A stretch of DNA of 64,000 bases from Sphingopyxis panaciterrulae (lineage in GTDB: Bacteria > Pseudomonadota > Alphaproteobacteria > Sphingomonadales > Sphingomonadaceae). The notes below the pieces were generated by a model. It ran no database searches and was not told the origin of the DNA. It was given only the letters and a program-made list of their open reading frames with translations. Made by a program: the position numbers and the translations under genes. Position 1 is the stretch's first letter. Each line of letters opens with the position of its first letter. The DNA lies in the NCBI RefSeq assembly GCF_014199295.1, contig NZ_JACIJH010000010.1:62001-126000 (forward strand), in the 5' to 3' direction. This document shows positions 4,242-41,423 of this stretch, piece by piece.

Positions 4242-4367
4242 CCCCTCCCCTTCAGGGGAGGACAGCGAAACTTGGCAGCTTGCTGCCTAGTTGCAGCGGG
4301 TGGGGGCCGACGGCCTTGCGCGAAGCCGACAGGCCCCACCCCAACCCCTCCCCTGAAGGGGAGGGGC
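4242..4367. repeat. Palindrome-ended repeat, copy A (126 bp, short form)
   Basis: Both ends are GC-rich palindromes, CCCCTCCCCTTCAGGGGAGG on the left and an inverted partner with TGAA in its loop on the right (4345-4367). Inside are the shared core CAGCGAAACTTGGCAGCTTG, a TGCTGCC hairpin arm, and a degenerate GGGGGCC/GGCCCC arm pair. It has the same length and order of parts as copies at 39631 and 41298. It sits in the divergent space between the dnaJ-like gene and pdxH, 45 bases before the pdxH start. Confidence 0.85.
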
Positions 4368-5814: not shown

Positions 5815-5990
5815 CCCTCCCCCTTGATGGGGGAGGCAGCGAGACTTGGCGGCTCGCCGCCTAGTCGCAGCAGAGGGGGTGCGGCCGCGGCCTGAAGCGA
5901 GCGATGCAAGGACGCACCATCACCCCCATCCAACTGCGCCTAATCGCTTCGCGATAAGGCTTCGTATCCTTCCCCCATCAAGGGGGAAGG
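5815..5990. repeat. Palindrome-ended repeat, copy B (176 bp, long form without gene)
   Basis: Left end 5815-5836 (CCCTCCCCCTTGATGGGGGA...) and right end 5968-5990 are inverted partners with loops TTGAT and ATCAA. The core GAGACTTGGCGGCTCGCCGC is followed by AGTCGCAGCAGAGGGGGTGC and then CGGCCTGAAGCGA. This last stretch matches the start region of the DUF559 gene in copy D (GCGACATGAAGCGG), with the ATG changed to CTG. The right half carries TAATCGCTTCGCGATAAGGC, a further hairpin. It fills the space between the convergent phzF-like and serine hydrolase genes. Confidence 0.85.
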
Positions 5991-12344: not shown

Positions 12345-12401
12345 ATAAGGCGTTGCAAGCCGCAACCCATGGCGATACCGCGCTAGCCGAACTCTCCCAC
12401 T

Positions 12402-12580
12402 CCCTCTCCCCTTGGGGGAGAGGGTTGCGAAGACTTGGCAGCGTGCTGCCTAGTCGAAGCTGGGTGAGGGGTATGCGAGCCCCTGGCTCGCGCGAAGCTG
12501 TGCTTCGCCCACCCTCATCCAACTTCGCCTAGCCGGCCAGCCGGCAAGGCTGCGTATCCTTCCCCCCTCAAGGGAGAAGG
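12402..12580. repeat. Palindrome-ended repeat, copy C (179 bp, long form without gene)
   Basis: Left palindrome 12402-12424 and right palindrome 12558-12580 (CCTTCCCCCCTCAAGGGAGA...) are diverged versions of those in copy B. The core GAAGACTTGGCAGCGTGCTG and CTAGTCGAAGCTGGGTGAGG is recognisable, and the right half ends CGTATCCTTCCCC as in copy B. It fills most of the 254-base gap between the SnoaL-like gene and cobS, ending 18 bases before the cobS start. Confidence 0.8.
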
Positions 12581-12598
12581 TTTGAAAGGCGACGAACG

Positions 12599-13588
12599 AT
12601 GACCGATATTCCGAACAGCCTCCCCGACCATCACGGCTCGACGCTTCTCGCCGCGCCCGACACCGAGGTCGATGCGCGCGAGGTCTTCGGGGTCGATATC
12701 GACATGAAAGTGCCGGCGTTCAGCGAGGCCGACGAGCGCGTACCCGACCTCGACCCGGCCTATGTCTTCGACGGCGACACGACGCTCGCCATCCTCGCGG
12801 GCTTCAAGTTCAACCGCCGCGTCATGGTGCAGGGCTATCACGGCACCGGCAAGTCGACGCATATCGAGCAGGTCGCCGCGCGGCTGAAATGGCCGTGCAT
12901 CCGCGTCAACCTCGACGCGCATATCAGCCGCATCGACCTCGTCGGCCGCGACGCGATCGTCCTCAGGGACGGGCAGCAGGTCACCGAATTTCGAGAAGGT
13001 CTGCTTCCCTGGGCGCTGCAAACCCCCACGGCCTTGGTCTTCGACGAATATGACGCGGGGCGCCCCGACGTGATGTTCGTGATCCAGCGCGTCCTGGAAG
13101 CGGAGGGCAAGCTGACCCTGCTCGACCAGAACCGCGTCATCCGACCGAATCCGCATTTCCGCCTGTTCTCGACCGCGAACACCGTCGGCCTCGGCGACAC
13201 GAGCGGCCTCTATCACGGCACGCAGCAGATCAACCAGGGGCAGATGGACCGCTGGAACATCGTCGTGACGCTGAATTACCTGCCCGCGGCGACCGAGAGC
13301 GCAATCATCCTCGCTAAGGTGCCGGCCGCCGACGATGCGACGGTCGCCAATATGGTCAAGGTCGCCGACCTGACCCGCCAGGGCTTCATCAACGGCGACA
13401 TCTCGACCGTCATGTCGCCGCGCACGGTCATCAGCTGGGCGCAGAACGCCGCGATCTTCAACAACCTCGGCTTCGCCTTCCGCCTGTCCTTCCTCAACAA
13501 GTGCGACGAGGCCGAACGGATGATCGTCGCCGAATATTATCAGCGCGTATTCGGCGAGGACCTGCCCGAGGGGATCGTCGGCAAGTGA
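12599..13588 (+). CDS. cobS: Cobaltochelatase AAA+ subunit CobS
   Basis: 329 residues. AAA+ ATPase with Walker [10 protein letters not shown], Walker [12 protein letters not shown], and sensor-like [13 protein letters not shown]. The N-terminal block [20 protein letters not shown] is typical of CobS. With CobT and CobN it inserts cobalt into hydrogenobyrinic acid a,c-diamide in aerobic cobalamin synthesis, acting as the MgATP motor. No cobN or other cobalamin gene is present in this window. cobT lies 1.7 kb downstream, separated by a DUF559 gene and a lipoprotein hydrolase. Confidence 0.94.
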
Positions 13589-13607
13589 GGCCTGCGCGCC
13601 CTTTCCC

Positions 13608-14062
13608 CCTCCCCCTCGATGGGGGAGGCAGCGAGACTTACGCGCTTGCGCGTTAGTCGCAGCGGAGGGGGTGCGGTCGCGACATGAAGCGGATACCTCC
13701 CGATGGCGCCACGGCGCGGAGCCGGTCGCTACGTGCAAACATGACCGATGCGGAACGAAAAGTCTGGGCGCTACTGCGCTCGGCCTTCCCCGAATGGCGC
13801 TTCCGCAGGCAAGTCCCCTTCCACCAATATATCGCCGACTTCGCTAGTCATCGGGCGCGGCTGGTGCTTGAAATCGACGGCGGTCAGCATGGCGAAGCAA
13901 GCGATGCGCCGAGAACGGCTATCATCGAAGCCAATGGCTATCGTGTACTTCGCTTCTGGAACAACGAGGTACTGACGAACATCGAAGGCGTTACGGGCCG
14001 ACTGGCGGCAGTTTTGAACGAGCGCTCACCCCCACCCAACCCTCCCCCATCAAGGGGGAGGG
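13608..14062. mobile_element. Palindrome-ended repeat, copy D (455 bp) carrying a DUF559 gene
   Basis: Left palindrome 13608-13628 and right palindrome 14040-14062 are inverted partners like those of copies A-C, E and F. The usual core follows the left end (CAGCGAGACTTACGCGCTTG, AGTCGCAGCGGAGGGGGTGC). From there the other copies go straight to their right half. Here a complete DUF559 coding sequence starts, and it runs through the right palindrome. This is the only copy with a gene. I infer it is the full-length form and the others are internally deleted or related non-coding forms; transposition has not been shown. Confidence 0.6.
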
Positions 14063-14085
14063 CTAGTCAGACATCCACGCCGTGA
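13684..14085 (+). CDS. DUF559-domain protein (Vsr-like endonuclease fold) inside a repeat element
   Basis: 133 residues. MTDAERKVWALLRSAFPEWR, FRRQVPFHQYIADFASHRAR, LVLEIDGGQHGE and IEANGYRVLRFWNNEVLTN are the signature blocks of DUF559, a family related to the very-short-patch-repair nuclease. The candidate catalytic acids are the Asp of IADF and the Glu/Asp of LEIDGGQH. No activity is proven for the family. The first 20 residues (MKRIPPDGATARSRSLRANM) are an extension. The last 19 (from SPPPNPPPSRGR) are encoded by the element's right-hand palindrome and the flanking DNA. Its TGA overlaps the GTG start of the next gene. Confidence 0.88.
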   Translation: MKRIPPDGATARSRSLRANMTDAERKVWALLRSAFPEWRFRRQVPFHQYIADFASHRARLVLEIDGGQHGEASDAPRTAIIEANGYRVLRFWNNEVLTNIEGVTGRLAAVLNERSPPPNPPPSRGRASQTSTP

Positions 14086-15278
14086 ACAAATTCGCCACCG
14101 CGCTCCTTGCGCCGTTCGCCGCGCTCGCCCTCGCCGGCTGCTTCCCGACCGTCGATTACGGCGACGTCCGCCATTCGGCCTATGTCGCCGAGCCGCGCTG
14201 TACGCCGCAGCCCGACGCGCCGGTCGATGCGGCGGCGCTGCCGCTCTTCTTCGTCACCAGCCGACTGCCCGATTGCCGCGAGCCCGAGATCCACCTGCTC
14301 GGTCATCGCGGCGACCGGGTGCGCTACGGTCGTTTCGCCGAGCCGCGCGACGAAACGATCGGCGGCAAGACGCGCTTCCGCACCCCGCTCGCGCTGCAGG
14401 CCGAGAGCGACTGGTGGGGCGCGCTGCAAGCCGAAGCCGGCCGGAAACAGGGCCGCGTGCTCCTCTATGTCCACGGCTATCGCGAGAGTTTCGAGACGAC
14501 GACCAAGGACGCCGCGCAGATCGCGCGCATGACCGGCTTCGACGGCCCGGTGATCGCCTATAGCTGGCCATCGCAGCACAAGGTGCTGAGCTACGCCGTC
14601 GACGAAACCAACATGTATCACGACGTCCGCAATTTCCGTGCCTTCCTGAAGGCGCTCGCCGAACAGCCGTGGGTGACCGAGGTGGTGATCGTCGCCCATT
14701 CGCTCGGCGCGCGTCTCGTCGTCCCGGCCATCGCCTATGTCGATCGCGCCGCGGCCGGATCGGACAGCCGCAACATATCCAACATCATCCTCGCCTCGCC
14801 CGACATCGACCGCGAGACGTTCGAGCGCGACATTTCCGCCGACGTGCTGGCCGAGGCCAAGGTCGCCCGCGCGCGGCGCATCACCGCCTATGTCTCGCTG
14901 AAGGACAAGGCGCTCGCCGCCTCGCGCGCGATCCACGGCTATCCGCGGCTCGGCTCGCCCTATTGCTTCGACAGCTTCGTGGCGGACGATCTGAAGGCGC
15001 GGGGCTTGCCCGTGCGCTGCTATGCCCATGCGATTCCGGGATTGACCATCGTCGACACCACCGACGTGTCGCGCGGATCGACCGGGCATAGCAATTTCCT
15101 GCGCAGCGCGGTCGTCTGCCGCGATTTCGTCGACGTCGTCGCGGGCAGGCTGGTCCGGCCCGAGCGCGTCCCTGTCGCGCCGCTGCACCACGTCTTCCGC
15201 TTGCTTCCCAATCCTGCAGCGCCCAAGGACAGCGACGACATTATCTGCCAGCGAAACAGCGATACCGAAGCGCCATGA
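14082..15278 (+). CDS. Lipoprotein alpha/beta hydrolase (DUF900-like)
   Basis: 398 residues starting at GTG 14082. The signal peptide ends in the lipobox LALAGC, so it should be a lipid-anchored envelope protein. The hydrolase core shows [20 protein letters not shown] (oxyanion), [15 protein letters not shown] and [15 protein letters not shown] with nucleophile Ser in AHSLG. The late HSNFLRS gives the likely catalytic His. DUF900 proteins are uncharacterised esterase-like enzymes. The gene overlaps the DUF559 gene upstream (GTGA) and cobT downstream (ATGA). Confidence 0.85.
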
Positions 15279-17098
15279 GCAACCCCTCTCCCCTCGACGA
15301 TCTGAAGACCGCGCTGTCGAGCGTCGCGCGCGCGGTGACGCGCGATCCCGAGGTCGAGGTCGGCTTCACGGCCGATGCGCCGGCCCAGATCGGCAAGGCG
15401 ATCAAGGTACCGACCCCGTCGCGCACCCTGCCCGCCGATCAGGTCGCCGAGGCGCGCGGCTTTGCCGACGCCTATGCGCTGCGCATGAAGCATCACAGCG
15501 AAAAGCTCCACGCCGCGGCGCGCCCCGGCGAGCCGATCGCTGCCGCCGCCTTCGACGCGATGGAGCGGGCGCGGATCGAGGCGCTGGGCGCGCGCAACAT
15601 GGCAGGGATGCGCGCTAATCTGTCGGCCAGCCTTCAGATGCGGATGCGCAGCGACCCGATCAGCCGCGCGCAGGACCGGGACGACGTGCCCGTGTCGACC
15701 GCGCTCGAACTGCTACTGCGCGAGGCGCTGACCGGCGAGCCGGCGCCACAGGGGACCGAGAGCGGCCTGTCGCTGGTGCGCGAATGGATCACGGGCGACG
15801 CCGGCGCCGATCTGACCGCGCTGTCGATGCTGCTCGACGACCAGGCCGCCTTTGCCGAGACCGCGAAGCTGGCGCTGCGCCACCTCGACCTGATCCAGGG
15901 CGACGAGCCGATCGAGGAAGGCGCCGAGGACGGCGGCGACGAGGAGGAAGCGGAGGCCGAGGAGGCGCCCGACCAGCAGGAAAGCGAAGAAGGCGGCGCC
16001 GGCGAATCGCAGGTCGACGCGCGGGCCGAGATGGACGGCGAACAGGCCGACGACGGCGACACCGATCCCGACGCGCAGGAGATGGAGGCCGACGGCGAGC
16101 CCGAAATGGGCGGCGAAGGCGACGAGGGGATGCTCCCGGTGCGCCCCAACCGCCTGCCGACCGACGTGCCCGATTTCAACTATATCCGTTTCACCGAAAA
16201 GCATGACGAGATCGTCGCGGCGACCGAACTCTGCGACGCCGACGAACTCACCCGGCTGCGCGCCTATCTCGATCAGCAGATGGCGCATCTGCAGGGCGCG
16301 GTGACCAAGCTTGCCAACCGCCTCCAGCGCCGGCTGATGGCGCAGCAGAACCGTGCGTGGGATTTCGATCAGGAGGAAGGCCAGCTCGACGCCGCCCGCC
16401 TCGCGCGGGTCGTCGTCTCGCCCGGTCATTCACTGAGCTACAAGATCGAGCGCGACACCGACTTCCGCGACACCGTCGTCACCCTGCTGATCGACAACAG
16501 CGGCTCGATGCGCGGGCGGCCGATCAGCATCGCCGCGATCAGCGCCGACATCCTCGCGCGCACGCTCGAACGCTGCGGGGTCAAGACCGAAATCCTCGGC
16601 TTCACCACCCGCACATGGAAGGGCGGGCAGAGCCGCGAGGACTGGCTCGCCGCCGGCCGTCCGCCGCACCCCGGCCGCCTCAACGACCTGCGCCACATCA
16701 TCTACAAGCCCGCCGACGAACCCTATCGCCGCGCGCGCCGCTCGCTGGGGCTGATGATGCGCGAGGGGCTGCTCAAGGAGAATATCGACGGCGAGGCGTT
16801 GATGTGGGCGCACAGCCGCATCGTCAACCGCCCCGAGGAACGCCGCATCCTGATGGTCATCTCCGACGGCGCGCCGGTCGACGACAGCACGCTGTCGGTC
16901 AACCACGGCGCCTATCTCGACCAGCATCTGCGCCAGGTCATCGAGTGGATCGAAAACCGCTCGCCGGTCGAGCTGTGCGCGATCGGCATCGGCCACGACG
17001 TGACGCGCTACTACAGCCGCGCGGTGACGATCATGGACGCCGAGCAGCTCGGCGGCACGATGGTCGAGCAGTTGGCGGGGTTGTTCGACGTGGATTGA
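15275..17098 (+). CDS. cobT: Cobaltochelatase subunit CobT
   Basis: 607 residues. Residues about 205-290 are extremely acidic (runs of Asp/Glu such as [20 protein letters not shown]), as in other CobT proteins. The C-terminal third is a von Willebrand A domain with a complete MIDAS motif DNSGSMRG and a later [11 protein letters not shown]. It forms a two-ring complex with CobS that activates CobN for cobalt insertion. The ATG overlaps the stop of the lipoprotein hydrolase by 4 bases. CobN is not in the window, so whether this pair serves cobalamin synthesis here cannot be decided. Confidence 0.94.
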
Positions 17099-17432
17099 GC
17101 GCTGGCTTCGTTGGAGTATCGAGATTGTAGCGTTCTTTACCTAGCCATTTGGGGTTTGAGTAAACTGCCATCGTCATTGCGAGCGAAACGAAGCAATCCA
17201 GAGCCCGCGTAAACCGCTCTGGATTGCTTCGTTTCGCTCGCAATGACGATGGTTTACACTTCTACCACGCCCCGCGTGACAACCCCCTGCCCCCTCGTTA
17301 CAAACCTGTCCCGATGCAGCAGGGACTCGCGGCCTGACGACGAGAGCCGTTGCAGCGACATCGTGCTGAGGGGTCGCCGGCATGACTTGGGGCCGCACCG
17401 GGGTGGTGCGTGGCTGAGGGGGCGACTGGCAT
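17099..17432. other. 334-base gene-free interval between cobT and the ThDP enzyme
   Basis: Holds the 37-bp perfect inverted repeat described separately at 17168-17252, and close to the next gene a small hairpin (CGCACC at 17394-17399, GGTGCG at 17405-17410). A GAGGGGG tract (17416-17422) lies 10 bases before the downstream ATG at 17433 and is the likely ribosome site. No convincing reading frame is seen in either strand. Confidence 0.6.
17168..17252. repeat. CATTGCGAGCGAA-type inverted repeat, 37-bp perfect arms
   Basis: Left arm 17168-17204 (begins CCATCGTCATTGCGAGCGAA) and right arm 17216-17252 are exact reverse complements over 37 bp, around an 11-base loop. The flanks GTAAAC and GTTTAC extend it imperfectly. 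The same family recurs at 20588. In RNA it would be a very stable hairpin, and could stop transcription from cobT. Similar repeats are, to my knowledge, widespread in alphaproteobacterial genomes. Confidence 0.9.
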
Positions 17433-39630: not shown

Positions 39631-39756
39631 GCCCTCCCCTTCAGGGGAGGGCAGCGAGACTTGCGAACTTGTTCGCTAGTCGCAGCGGGTGGGGGCCATC
39701 GGCCTTGCGCAAGGCCGATGGCCCCCACCCCAACCCCTCCCCTGAAGGGGAGGGGC
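39631..39756. repeat. Palindrome-ended repeat, copy E (126 bp, short form)
   Basis: Left palindrome 39631-39652, right palindrome 39734-39756, core CAGCGAGACTTGCGAACTTG and TAGTCGCAGCGGG. The centre 39687-39730 is a perfect 44-bp palindrome (left half starts GGGTGGGGGCCATCGGCCTT). Same length and architecture as copies A and F. It lies between serA and hisZ, ending 40 bases before the hisZ start. Confidence 0.9.
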
Positions 39757-41297: not shown

Positions 41298-41423
41298 CCC
41301 TCCCCTTCAGGGGAGGGCAGCGAGACTTGCCAGCTTGCTGGCTTAGTCGCAGCGGGTGGGGGCCATCGGCCTTGCACAAGGCCGATGGCCCCCACCCCAA
41401 CCCCTCCCCTAAAGGGGAGGGGC
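41298..41423. repeat. Palindrome-ended repeat, copy F (126 bp, short form)
   Basis: Left palindrome 41298-41317 and right palindrome 41401-41423, core CAGCGAGACTTGCCAGCTTG and TTAGTCGCAGCGGGTGGGGG. The inner GGGGGCCATCGGCCTTGCAC palindrome differs from copy E by one base at the centre. It occupies the divergent space between the DOPA-dioxygenase-like gene and purA. Confidence 0.9.

Follow-up and report, generated by a model that had tools for sequence, protein, structure and literature searches.

A DUF559 nuclease gene between inverted palindromes in Sphingopyxis panaciterrulae points to a partnership of DUF559 nucleases with triplex-type REP repeats

The window, by which we mean the whole 64-kb stretch of DNA analysed here (G000:C10:62001-126000, from a draft genome of 4.43 Mb), contains a palindrome-ended unit at 13607-14062, located between a CobS-like gene (12599-13588) and a gene for a DUF900 hydrolase (14082-15278), the latter being followed by a CobT gene (15275-17098). 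Read on the forward strand, this unit comprises (i) a left terminal palindrome, CCCTCCCCCTCGATGGGGGAGG (13607-13628), which marks the left limit of homology with loci L266 and L269, (ii) a core hairpin (13630-13663) in common with gene-less copies of the repeat, (iii) a gene (13684-14085) for a DUF559 nuclease (PD-(D/E)XK, Vsr-like) of 133 amino acids, (iv) a mirror 'third-strand' tag, ACCCCCACCCAA (14028-14039), which adjoins the right palindrome as in triplex motifs, and (v) the right terminal palindrome itself (14040-14062), which is part of the coded protein tail and beyond which homology with relatives stops at 14064. A preliminary description of this DNA had the gene begin right after the core and end in the right palindrome. 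The start is indeed near the core, but the reading frame begins at 13684, 20 nt past it; likewise, the palindrome is translated in the protein tail, but the frame continues to a stop ending at 14085. A second DUF559 gene of the same genome (L001) also lies between palindromes, which are of another type.

Six copies of one palindrome-ended repeat family lie in the window at the places first reported, and only the copy at 13607 carries a gene. At both ends of every copy the palindromes are inverted and of CTCCC type, with loops that are roughly inverted as well (off by one base in copies 13607 and 41298). The gene-less copies, all given on the forward strand, are a REPIN-like inverted palindrome pair of type G at 4242-4366, two further type-G copies at 39631-39755 and 41298-41422, a copy at 5815-5990 of type E, which is also the palindrome type of 13607-14062, and a copy at 12402-12580, the most diverged of the six, with core GCGAAGACTT and an imperfect right palindrome. 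Genome-wide, 23 matches to the core AGCGARACTT-N4..30-AGTCGCAGC stand against 0 for the reversed control, and the 6-bp stem inside the core varies with compensation, 68/72 pairs being Watson-Crick and 3/72 G-T in a set of 12 distinct arm pairs from seventeen 34-nt cores (six cores of other length were excluded). Rfam gave no family at the gathering threshold, and a known RNA family was rejected on that ground.

The product of the gene is assigned to DUF559 and to the Vsr-like PD-(D/E)XK nucleases by family profile (Pfam PF04480, E 1.4e-33) as well as by fold. Its AF2 model (mean pLDDT 83.8) matches 3hrl, a putative endonuclease of unknown function (Z 14.4; 38% identity), the catalytic domain of the homing endonuclease I-Bth0305I (Z 11.4; 92 residues) and Vsr (Z 9.7), and the residues invariant among 38 sequences include Q43, D52, E63, D65 and H69. 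VsrA, a DUF559 protein of Caulobacter, is described as required by cells without the ScmA methylase for their response to DNA damage, and its authors propose a role in mismatch repair (PMC12907096); the family is thus capable of acting on DNA in vivo. An ordinary insertion sequence or MITE was rejected as the nature of the unit at 13607-14062, which has no transposase gene and of which DUF559 is the sole recognised gene. Repeats driven by a RAYT were rejected as well, since 49 of the 60 genus genomes, the one analysed here among them, lack Y1_Tnp, the RAYT family, and only 11 have it.

The arrangement at 13607-14062 recurs at most DUF559 genes of the genus. Palindromes were called by a rule blind to sequence (perfect stem of at least 8, loop of 3-8, at most 150 bp from the DUF559 domain), and in a first test they were present on both sides of 48/52 DUF559 domains (one of 53, near an edge, was excluded), versus 30/6486 control windows in the 20-kb stretches around these genes. 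An enlarged census of 60 genomes of the genus, covering 113 of 173 summed DUF559 matches with the best-scoring preferred, yielded palindromes on both sides at 104/113 loci and on at least one side at 110/113. For 69 phylum loci, fetched out of a larger match set, the corresponding figures are 34/69 and 63/69, against 34 and 778 of 7012 control windows. Among named relatives (the best 80 of at least 519 confirmed matches, reduced to 74 by excluding 6 near contig ends; L288 and L323 among the 80 duplicate L258 and L114), palindromes within 180 bp occur on both sides at 53/74 and on at least one side at 66/74, against 55 and 1092 of 8315 control windows. These named loci, again the best 80 of at least 519, span Alpha-, Beta- and Gammaproteobacteria and include metagenome-assembled genomes labelled Terriglobia, Chloroflexi, Gastranaerophilales and Marinimicrobia, labels which may be wrong. 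DUF559 genes lying mostly outside such repeats had been named at the outset as the outcome that would speak against the proposed link; with the counts of 104/113 in the genus and 53/74 among the named loci, they lie mostly between palindromes. Under a stricter, CTCCC-type rule, both sides are still occupied at 98/113 genus, 32/69 phylum and 51/74 named loci (from the best 80 of at least 519). Altogether, 493/574 palindromes flanking DUF559 loci are of CTCCC type, with the common scheme CYYTCYCCC-loop-GGGRGARRG, and DUF559 genes thus lie, as RAYT genes do in REPtrons, between inverted palindromes that belong to a dispersed family.

The two ends of these loci are matched to each other. The left and right ends share one arm type at 92/103 genus loci (mean 22, maximum 37 in 1000 shuffles); where the two loops are equally long, they are more alike as reverse complements in 72 end pairs and as direct copies in 11, and the genus pairs divide into 49 exact reverse complements, 1 exact direct copy and 52 that are non-identical. 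A mirror tag (at least 7/9) accompanies 134/238 palindromes on the inner side versus 24/238 on the outer side; in the window, the right palindrome has it (8/9), but the left one, with only 4/9, has no such tag. At orthologous loci from six contexts, left palindromes are 79-100% identical, a range inflated by the choice of perfect palindromes, and nucleotide identity is 65-82% for the nuclease domain, 49-81% for the spacer and 43-69% for the 40 bp outside.

Palindrome type, in turn, follows DUF559 clade, which suggests that palindrome type and nuclease largely stayed together across sites. The 113 genus loci represent 19 genomic contexts, defined as single-linkage groups in which neighbouring sites may be merged. 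A tree of 45 DUF559 domains requires 7 changes of palindrome type (mean 24.3 in 200 shuffles, none as low), and with one row per context (17 labelled) 7 changes are again required, where shuffled labels need about 10.8 on average and, over five draws, reach so low a number in no more than 1/500. A single DUF559 clade, covering several contexts, corresponds to type H and another to type G; for type E this is only partly so, with contexts 11 and 14 (the window's) inside and context 10 outside, and types A and T are dispersed over several clades. The same type can be present at several contexts, as with type A twice in G052 (L065, L066), and a single genome holds up to 12 DUF559 genes. A loose pattern for the core hairpin is found near 1/11 type-G but 4/6 type-E DUF559 genes.

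The number of genes is related to the number of repeats. Over the 60 genomes of the genus, the number of DUF559 genes rises with that of CTCCCN{3,8}GGGAG (Spearman rho 0.76, or 0.79 per Mb, uncorrected for phylogeny), versus a rho of 0.22 for the reversed-pattern control; the correlation for which the preliminary description had proposed to look is therefore present, with exceptions. The median palindrome number is 27.5 in the 8 genomes lacking DUF559 (reversed-pattern background 11.5) and 104 in the 52 that carry it (background 16), so that repeats are not equally abundant where the gene is missing, which had been a second outcome named as contrary to the link. In 299 phylum genomes, the median log2 palindrome excess is 1.69 for the 77 with strong DUF559 matches (E under 1e-20) versus -0.08 for the rest, and permutation within 16 mixed families gave 0/10000 values as high. 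The exceptions comprise 22/77 strong-DUF559 genomes without palindrome excess and 10/45 palindrome-rich genomes without strong DUF559. The relation extends to individual types: type-G palindromes (CCCTCCCCTTCAGGGGAGGG, up to one mismatch) have a median of 51 in the 10 genomes with known type-G DUF559 versus 5 in the 50 others, a difference with p 0.001 after allowing for other palindromes. Three genomes are rich in type G without a known type-G DUF559 (about 60 of the 173 matches being untyped), namely G029 (92), G031 (66) and the genome analysed here (48), both of whose DUF559 genes are typed and of other types.

The type-G copies of the window resemble one end of such an element. Over its right 60 nt, the copy at 39631-39755 agrees at 48-54 of 60 positions with the 3' ends of nine of the eleven type-G DUF559 elements, the other two being without a scored palindrome pair, versus at most 37 of 60 (mean 27, n=96) for ends of other types, and the 5' ends of the same nine elements match only at 35-38 of 60. 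With the 3' end of element L379, the right 60 nt are 48/60 identical for the copy at 4242, 52/60 for that at 39631 and 50/60 for that at 41298. The three copies are thus best read as MITE-like units which, to judge from sequence, would have their 3' end in common with a DUF559 element that is present in relatives and missing from their own genome. In G038, the same gene-less unit (L380, L381) exists alongside L379, a type-G element that is intact, and a DUF559 copy with a broken frame (L377) lies elsewhere between palindromes that are the same as those of L379. The same genome has, at L378 (G038:C2:1936500-1937500), a type-G pair in which another element, bounded by GGGTCAGGACCC...GGGTCCTGACCC, interrupts the core. 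The gene itself appears to be mostly sessile, and the gene-less repeats to be the dispersed part, since both flanks are shared by 56/56 pairs of DUF559 domains from the genus (among 53 domains) whose nucleotide identity is 80% or more; a frequently hopping DUF559 gene was rejected for the same reason.

A specific, long-lived partnership of DUF559 nucleases with triplex-type REP repeats is well supported by these data. Our preferred reading, to which we assign a probability of roughly two in three (0.68), goes further and proposes a two-part repeat system, made up of a sessile DUF559 gene and dispersed gene-less palindrome pairs, in which the nuclease would recognise and cut and host repair would copy. 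It builds on the association itself, the matched ends, the link between type and clade, the spread across phyla and the shared element ends. The first part would be the gene for a small PD-(D/E)XK DUF559 protein, mostly sessile and placed between two inverted GC-rich palindromes, often with an inner mirror tag, and the second part the dispersed gene-less pairs, some of which have an element end in common with the first. Most likely, DUF559 would recognise the palindrome CYYTCYCCC-loop-GGGRGARRG, perhaps as an extruded hairpin or an intrastrand triplex, and would cut either at the palindrome or at half-sites bearing CTCTCCC, whereupon repair of the break by the host would copy, move or lose repeat units. 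DUF559 cutting that spreads or preserves the repeats is the most likely mechanism, for which we infer the steps of recognition, cutting and repair copying. Counting against this reading are the exceptions given above (22/77 and 10/45 phylum genomes, and the three genomes rich in type G), the 5' match of only 35-38 of 60 for type-G elements, the core near just 1/11 type-G genes, the high raw cross-correlations with a second nuclease family given below, and the other role assigned to VsrA. The suggestion in the preliminary description that the DUF559 protein moves or maintains the repeats thus survives as far as the link between enzyme and repeat is concerned, which both the association and the correlation of gene and palindrome numbers favour, but not in the sense of a hopping gene, as all 56 close pairs share their flanks.

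The history of individual sites is consistent with palindromes acting as ends. The nearest relatives of the window copy (G014, G033 and G045; 75-77% identity in amino acids) are sited between hydrolase and cobT, a site that is empty in the window, where the two genes overlap at 15275-15278; the window's own site, between cobS and hydrolase, is in turn empty in G033 (L214). Empty sites in relatives, which the preliminary description had suggested seeking, thus exist, including reciprocal ones. Homology of the copies in G014 and G045 with the window copy covers 13607-14064, palindrome to palindrome, and the reciprocal empty sites suggest that the unit was either shifted by about 1.2 kb or inserted twice, with the palindromes as ends. 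At 30 orthologous cobS sites, the DUF559 gene is present in 1 (the window's own) and neither core nor gene in 26, and in L197, L212 and L213 the left part (palindrome and core) is present without the gene. The intergenic site before cobS, which in the window holds the copy at 12402-12580, was compared by eye at 30 loci: a CTCCC pair is present in 5 (the window included) and a single palindrome in 1, and 4 hold a pair of CTGAAC...TTCAG type that bears CGTC-like tags; 19 are empty, 13 of these with a native GACTCTCCC equal to the arm motif, and 1 is not comparable. The native GACTCTCCC at empty sites hints, at this one locus, at a possible target site, and no clear target-site duplication was seen by eye in the printed filled and empty sites. 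The site before cobS (window 12345-12598 and L196-L225) is filled by two unrelated repeat families and is, in this respect, hot-spot-like.

An alternative is a homing-type selfish gene, in which case DUF559 would cut the palindromes only for its own copying, and the gene-less repeats would be unmaintained relics or targets. The nearest characterised fold after 3hrl is that of a homing endonuclease, the left part stands without the gene at the cobS site in L197, L212 and L213, and the broken gene copy of G038 lies elsewhere between the same palindromes; all three are in line with homing. We nevertheless regard it as unlikely, given that (i) the 56/56 close pairs share their context, (ii) the repeats far exceed the genes, with 530 palindromes against 12 DUF559 genes in G056, and (iii) the window protein matches just 43/72,556 plasmid and 2/50,697 phage records, for which reason plasmid or phage cargo was likewise rejected as the main nature of DUF559.

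The right palindrome lies wholly within the DUF559 reading frame at 94/106 genus loci that have one, and is therefore at least transcribed with the gene. This, together with the finding that similar palindromes at the 3' ends of genes are read as terminators in an account of Enterobacter 638 (PMC2869309), would suit a passive cassette, in which the palindromes are terminators or mRNA-stabilising hairpins travelling with DUF559 and are dispersed by an unrelated enzyme. A terminator within a reading frame would be odd, however, and a passive cassette predicts neither the link between gene number and palindrome number, nor the type specificity, nor the presence of matched palindromes both ahead of the gene and behind it, so that we consider it quite improbable when set beside the two-part system.

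GIY-YIG nuclease genes, intended as a control, proved to be flanked by a palindrome type of their own. Palindromes occur on both sides at 7 of the 28 best loci (2 of 30 were too short and excluded) and at 14 of 20 chosen loci (within 200 bp, with stems of 7 or more; control 111/2720), the latter mostly having short open frames and, being chosen, not forming a random sample. The CTCCC type is on both sides of 103/113 DUF559 versus 0/48 GIY-YIG loci, a CGTC-resembling type on both sides of 24/48 GIY-YIG versus 0/113 DUF559 loci, and 34/71 palindromes at GIY-YIG loci bear CGTC/GACG tags. Raw cross-correlations, uncorrected for phylogeny, are high (0.64 for DUF559 with the CGTC type, 0.61 for GIY-YIG with CTCCC). 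The partial correlation of DUF559 with CTCCC is 0.51 (p 4e-5), given GIY-YIG and CGTC-type counts, and that of GIY-YIG, counted as all proteins with this domain, with the CGTC-type pattern is 0.37 (p 0.004); the cross terms, at 0.15, are not significant. Genus GIY-YIG genes, mostly short and between inverted palindromes often tagged CGTC/GACG, are found at L153, L155, L158, L160 and L174-L193. In the window, a long inverted repeat with cgtc...gacg ends (cgtcattgcgagcgaaacgaagcaatcc ... reverse) follows cobT at 17171-17254 and is possibly another CGTC-tagged repeat. That DUF559 is a Vsr-like mismatch-repair enzyme and the repeats are recombination-prone spots which it happens to adjoin appears very improbable to us, for although VsrA of Caulobacter is reported as needed for the damage response without ScmA (PMC12907096) and the Vsr fold is matched with Z 9.7, palindromes on both sides occur in only 30/6486 windows of the same DNA, and a second nuclease family of the same genomes, GIY-YIG, has this type on both sides at 0/48 loci.

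With the two-part system as our preferred reading, it is tempting to extend the argument and to speculate, at what we would call even odds, that bacterial REP repeats have three or more unrelated nucleases as their enzymes, namely HUH RAYTs (GTAG), DUF559 (triplex/CTCCC) and GIY-YIG (CGTC). If true, two large enzyme-less classes of repeats would turn out to be a new class of mobile DNA that is free of transposases and depends on endonuclease cutting and host repair, and the nuclease partners would fill gaps in the accounts of triplex motifs (PMC4666352) and CGTC repeats (PMC3733652). DUF559, a widespread family named as being of unknown function, would gain a substrate, and the REP strategy would have arisen with unrelated enzymes. 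No paper linking DUF559 or GIY-YIG nucleases to REP repeats was found among the open-access matches listed, subscription papers and preprints being outside the scope of that search.

When compared with known systems, the nuclease domain is like Vsr and I-Bth0305I in its fold (Z 9.7 and 11.4), and neither of these is known as the partner of a dispersed palindrome family. The repeats flanking GIY-YIG genes resemble CGTC-tagged REPs, by general resemblance and tag and not by the published consensus; the latter are described by Di Nocera et al. (2013; PMC3733652) as apparently without a dedicated transposase. CGTC-tagged REPs, as described there, share with the DUF559 repeats their palindromic nature and differ from them in the palindrome itself.

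The palindromes flanking DUF559 genes, as judged by their letters, belong to the published family of intrastrand triplex motifs. As reported by Holder et al. (2015), these occur in more than 260 genomes, with 23 copies in E. coli K-12, and are associated with genome instability but, in that account, with no mobility gene nearby (PMC4666352). The likeness extends to the same CCCTCTCCC/GGGAGAGGG palindromes, the mirror third strand, the intergenic location and the presence of some inverted pairs; unlike in triplex motifs as published there, DUF559 is here the associated gene. In E. coli K-12 itself, the DUF559 gene ycjD ends within a triplex motif, and a second, inverted motif lies within about 200 bp. 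At this locus (L366, 2908-3261), part of the triplex motif codes the C-terminus of YcjD. The gene is polymorphic in E. coli (present in 3365/5426 genomes); the motif is present at 6/6 chosen ycjD-positive loci, at 5/6 as an inverted pair by the exact pattern, and no motif is seen in the 3.2 kb fetched at five ycjD-negative loci, a stretch which stops short of sapF. The five negative regions have fabI and then the start of an efflux operon, and are not a clean empty site (compare PMC12817139).

The closest parallel is with RAYT/REPIN systems, which are described as comprising a sessile gene, inverted flanking palindromes, dispersed inverted pairs and several types per genome (PMC3116915, PMC3733652). 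As in such a REPtron, the DUF559 gene lies between inverted palindromes and is not self-mobile, the counter-cases being one decayed second copy in G038 and the shifted site of the window copy, and palindrome pairs are dispersed. Unlike in RAYT/REPIN, the enzyme is a PD-(D/E)XK nuclease of DUF559 and not a Y1 (HUH) transposase, and the repeat family is another one. The best reading of the combined analysis is hence that the DUF559 system would work like REP/RAYT, but with an unrelated enzyme.
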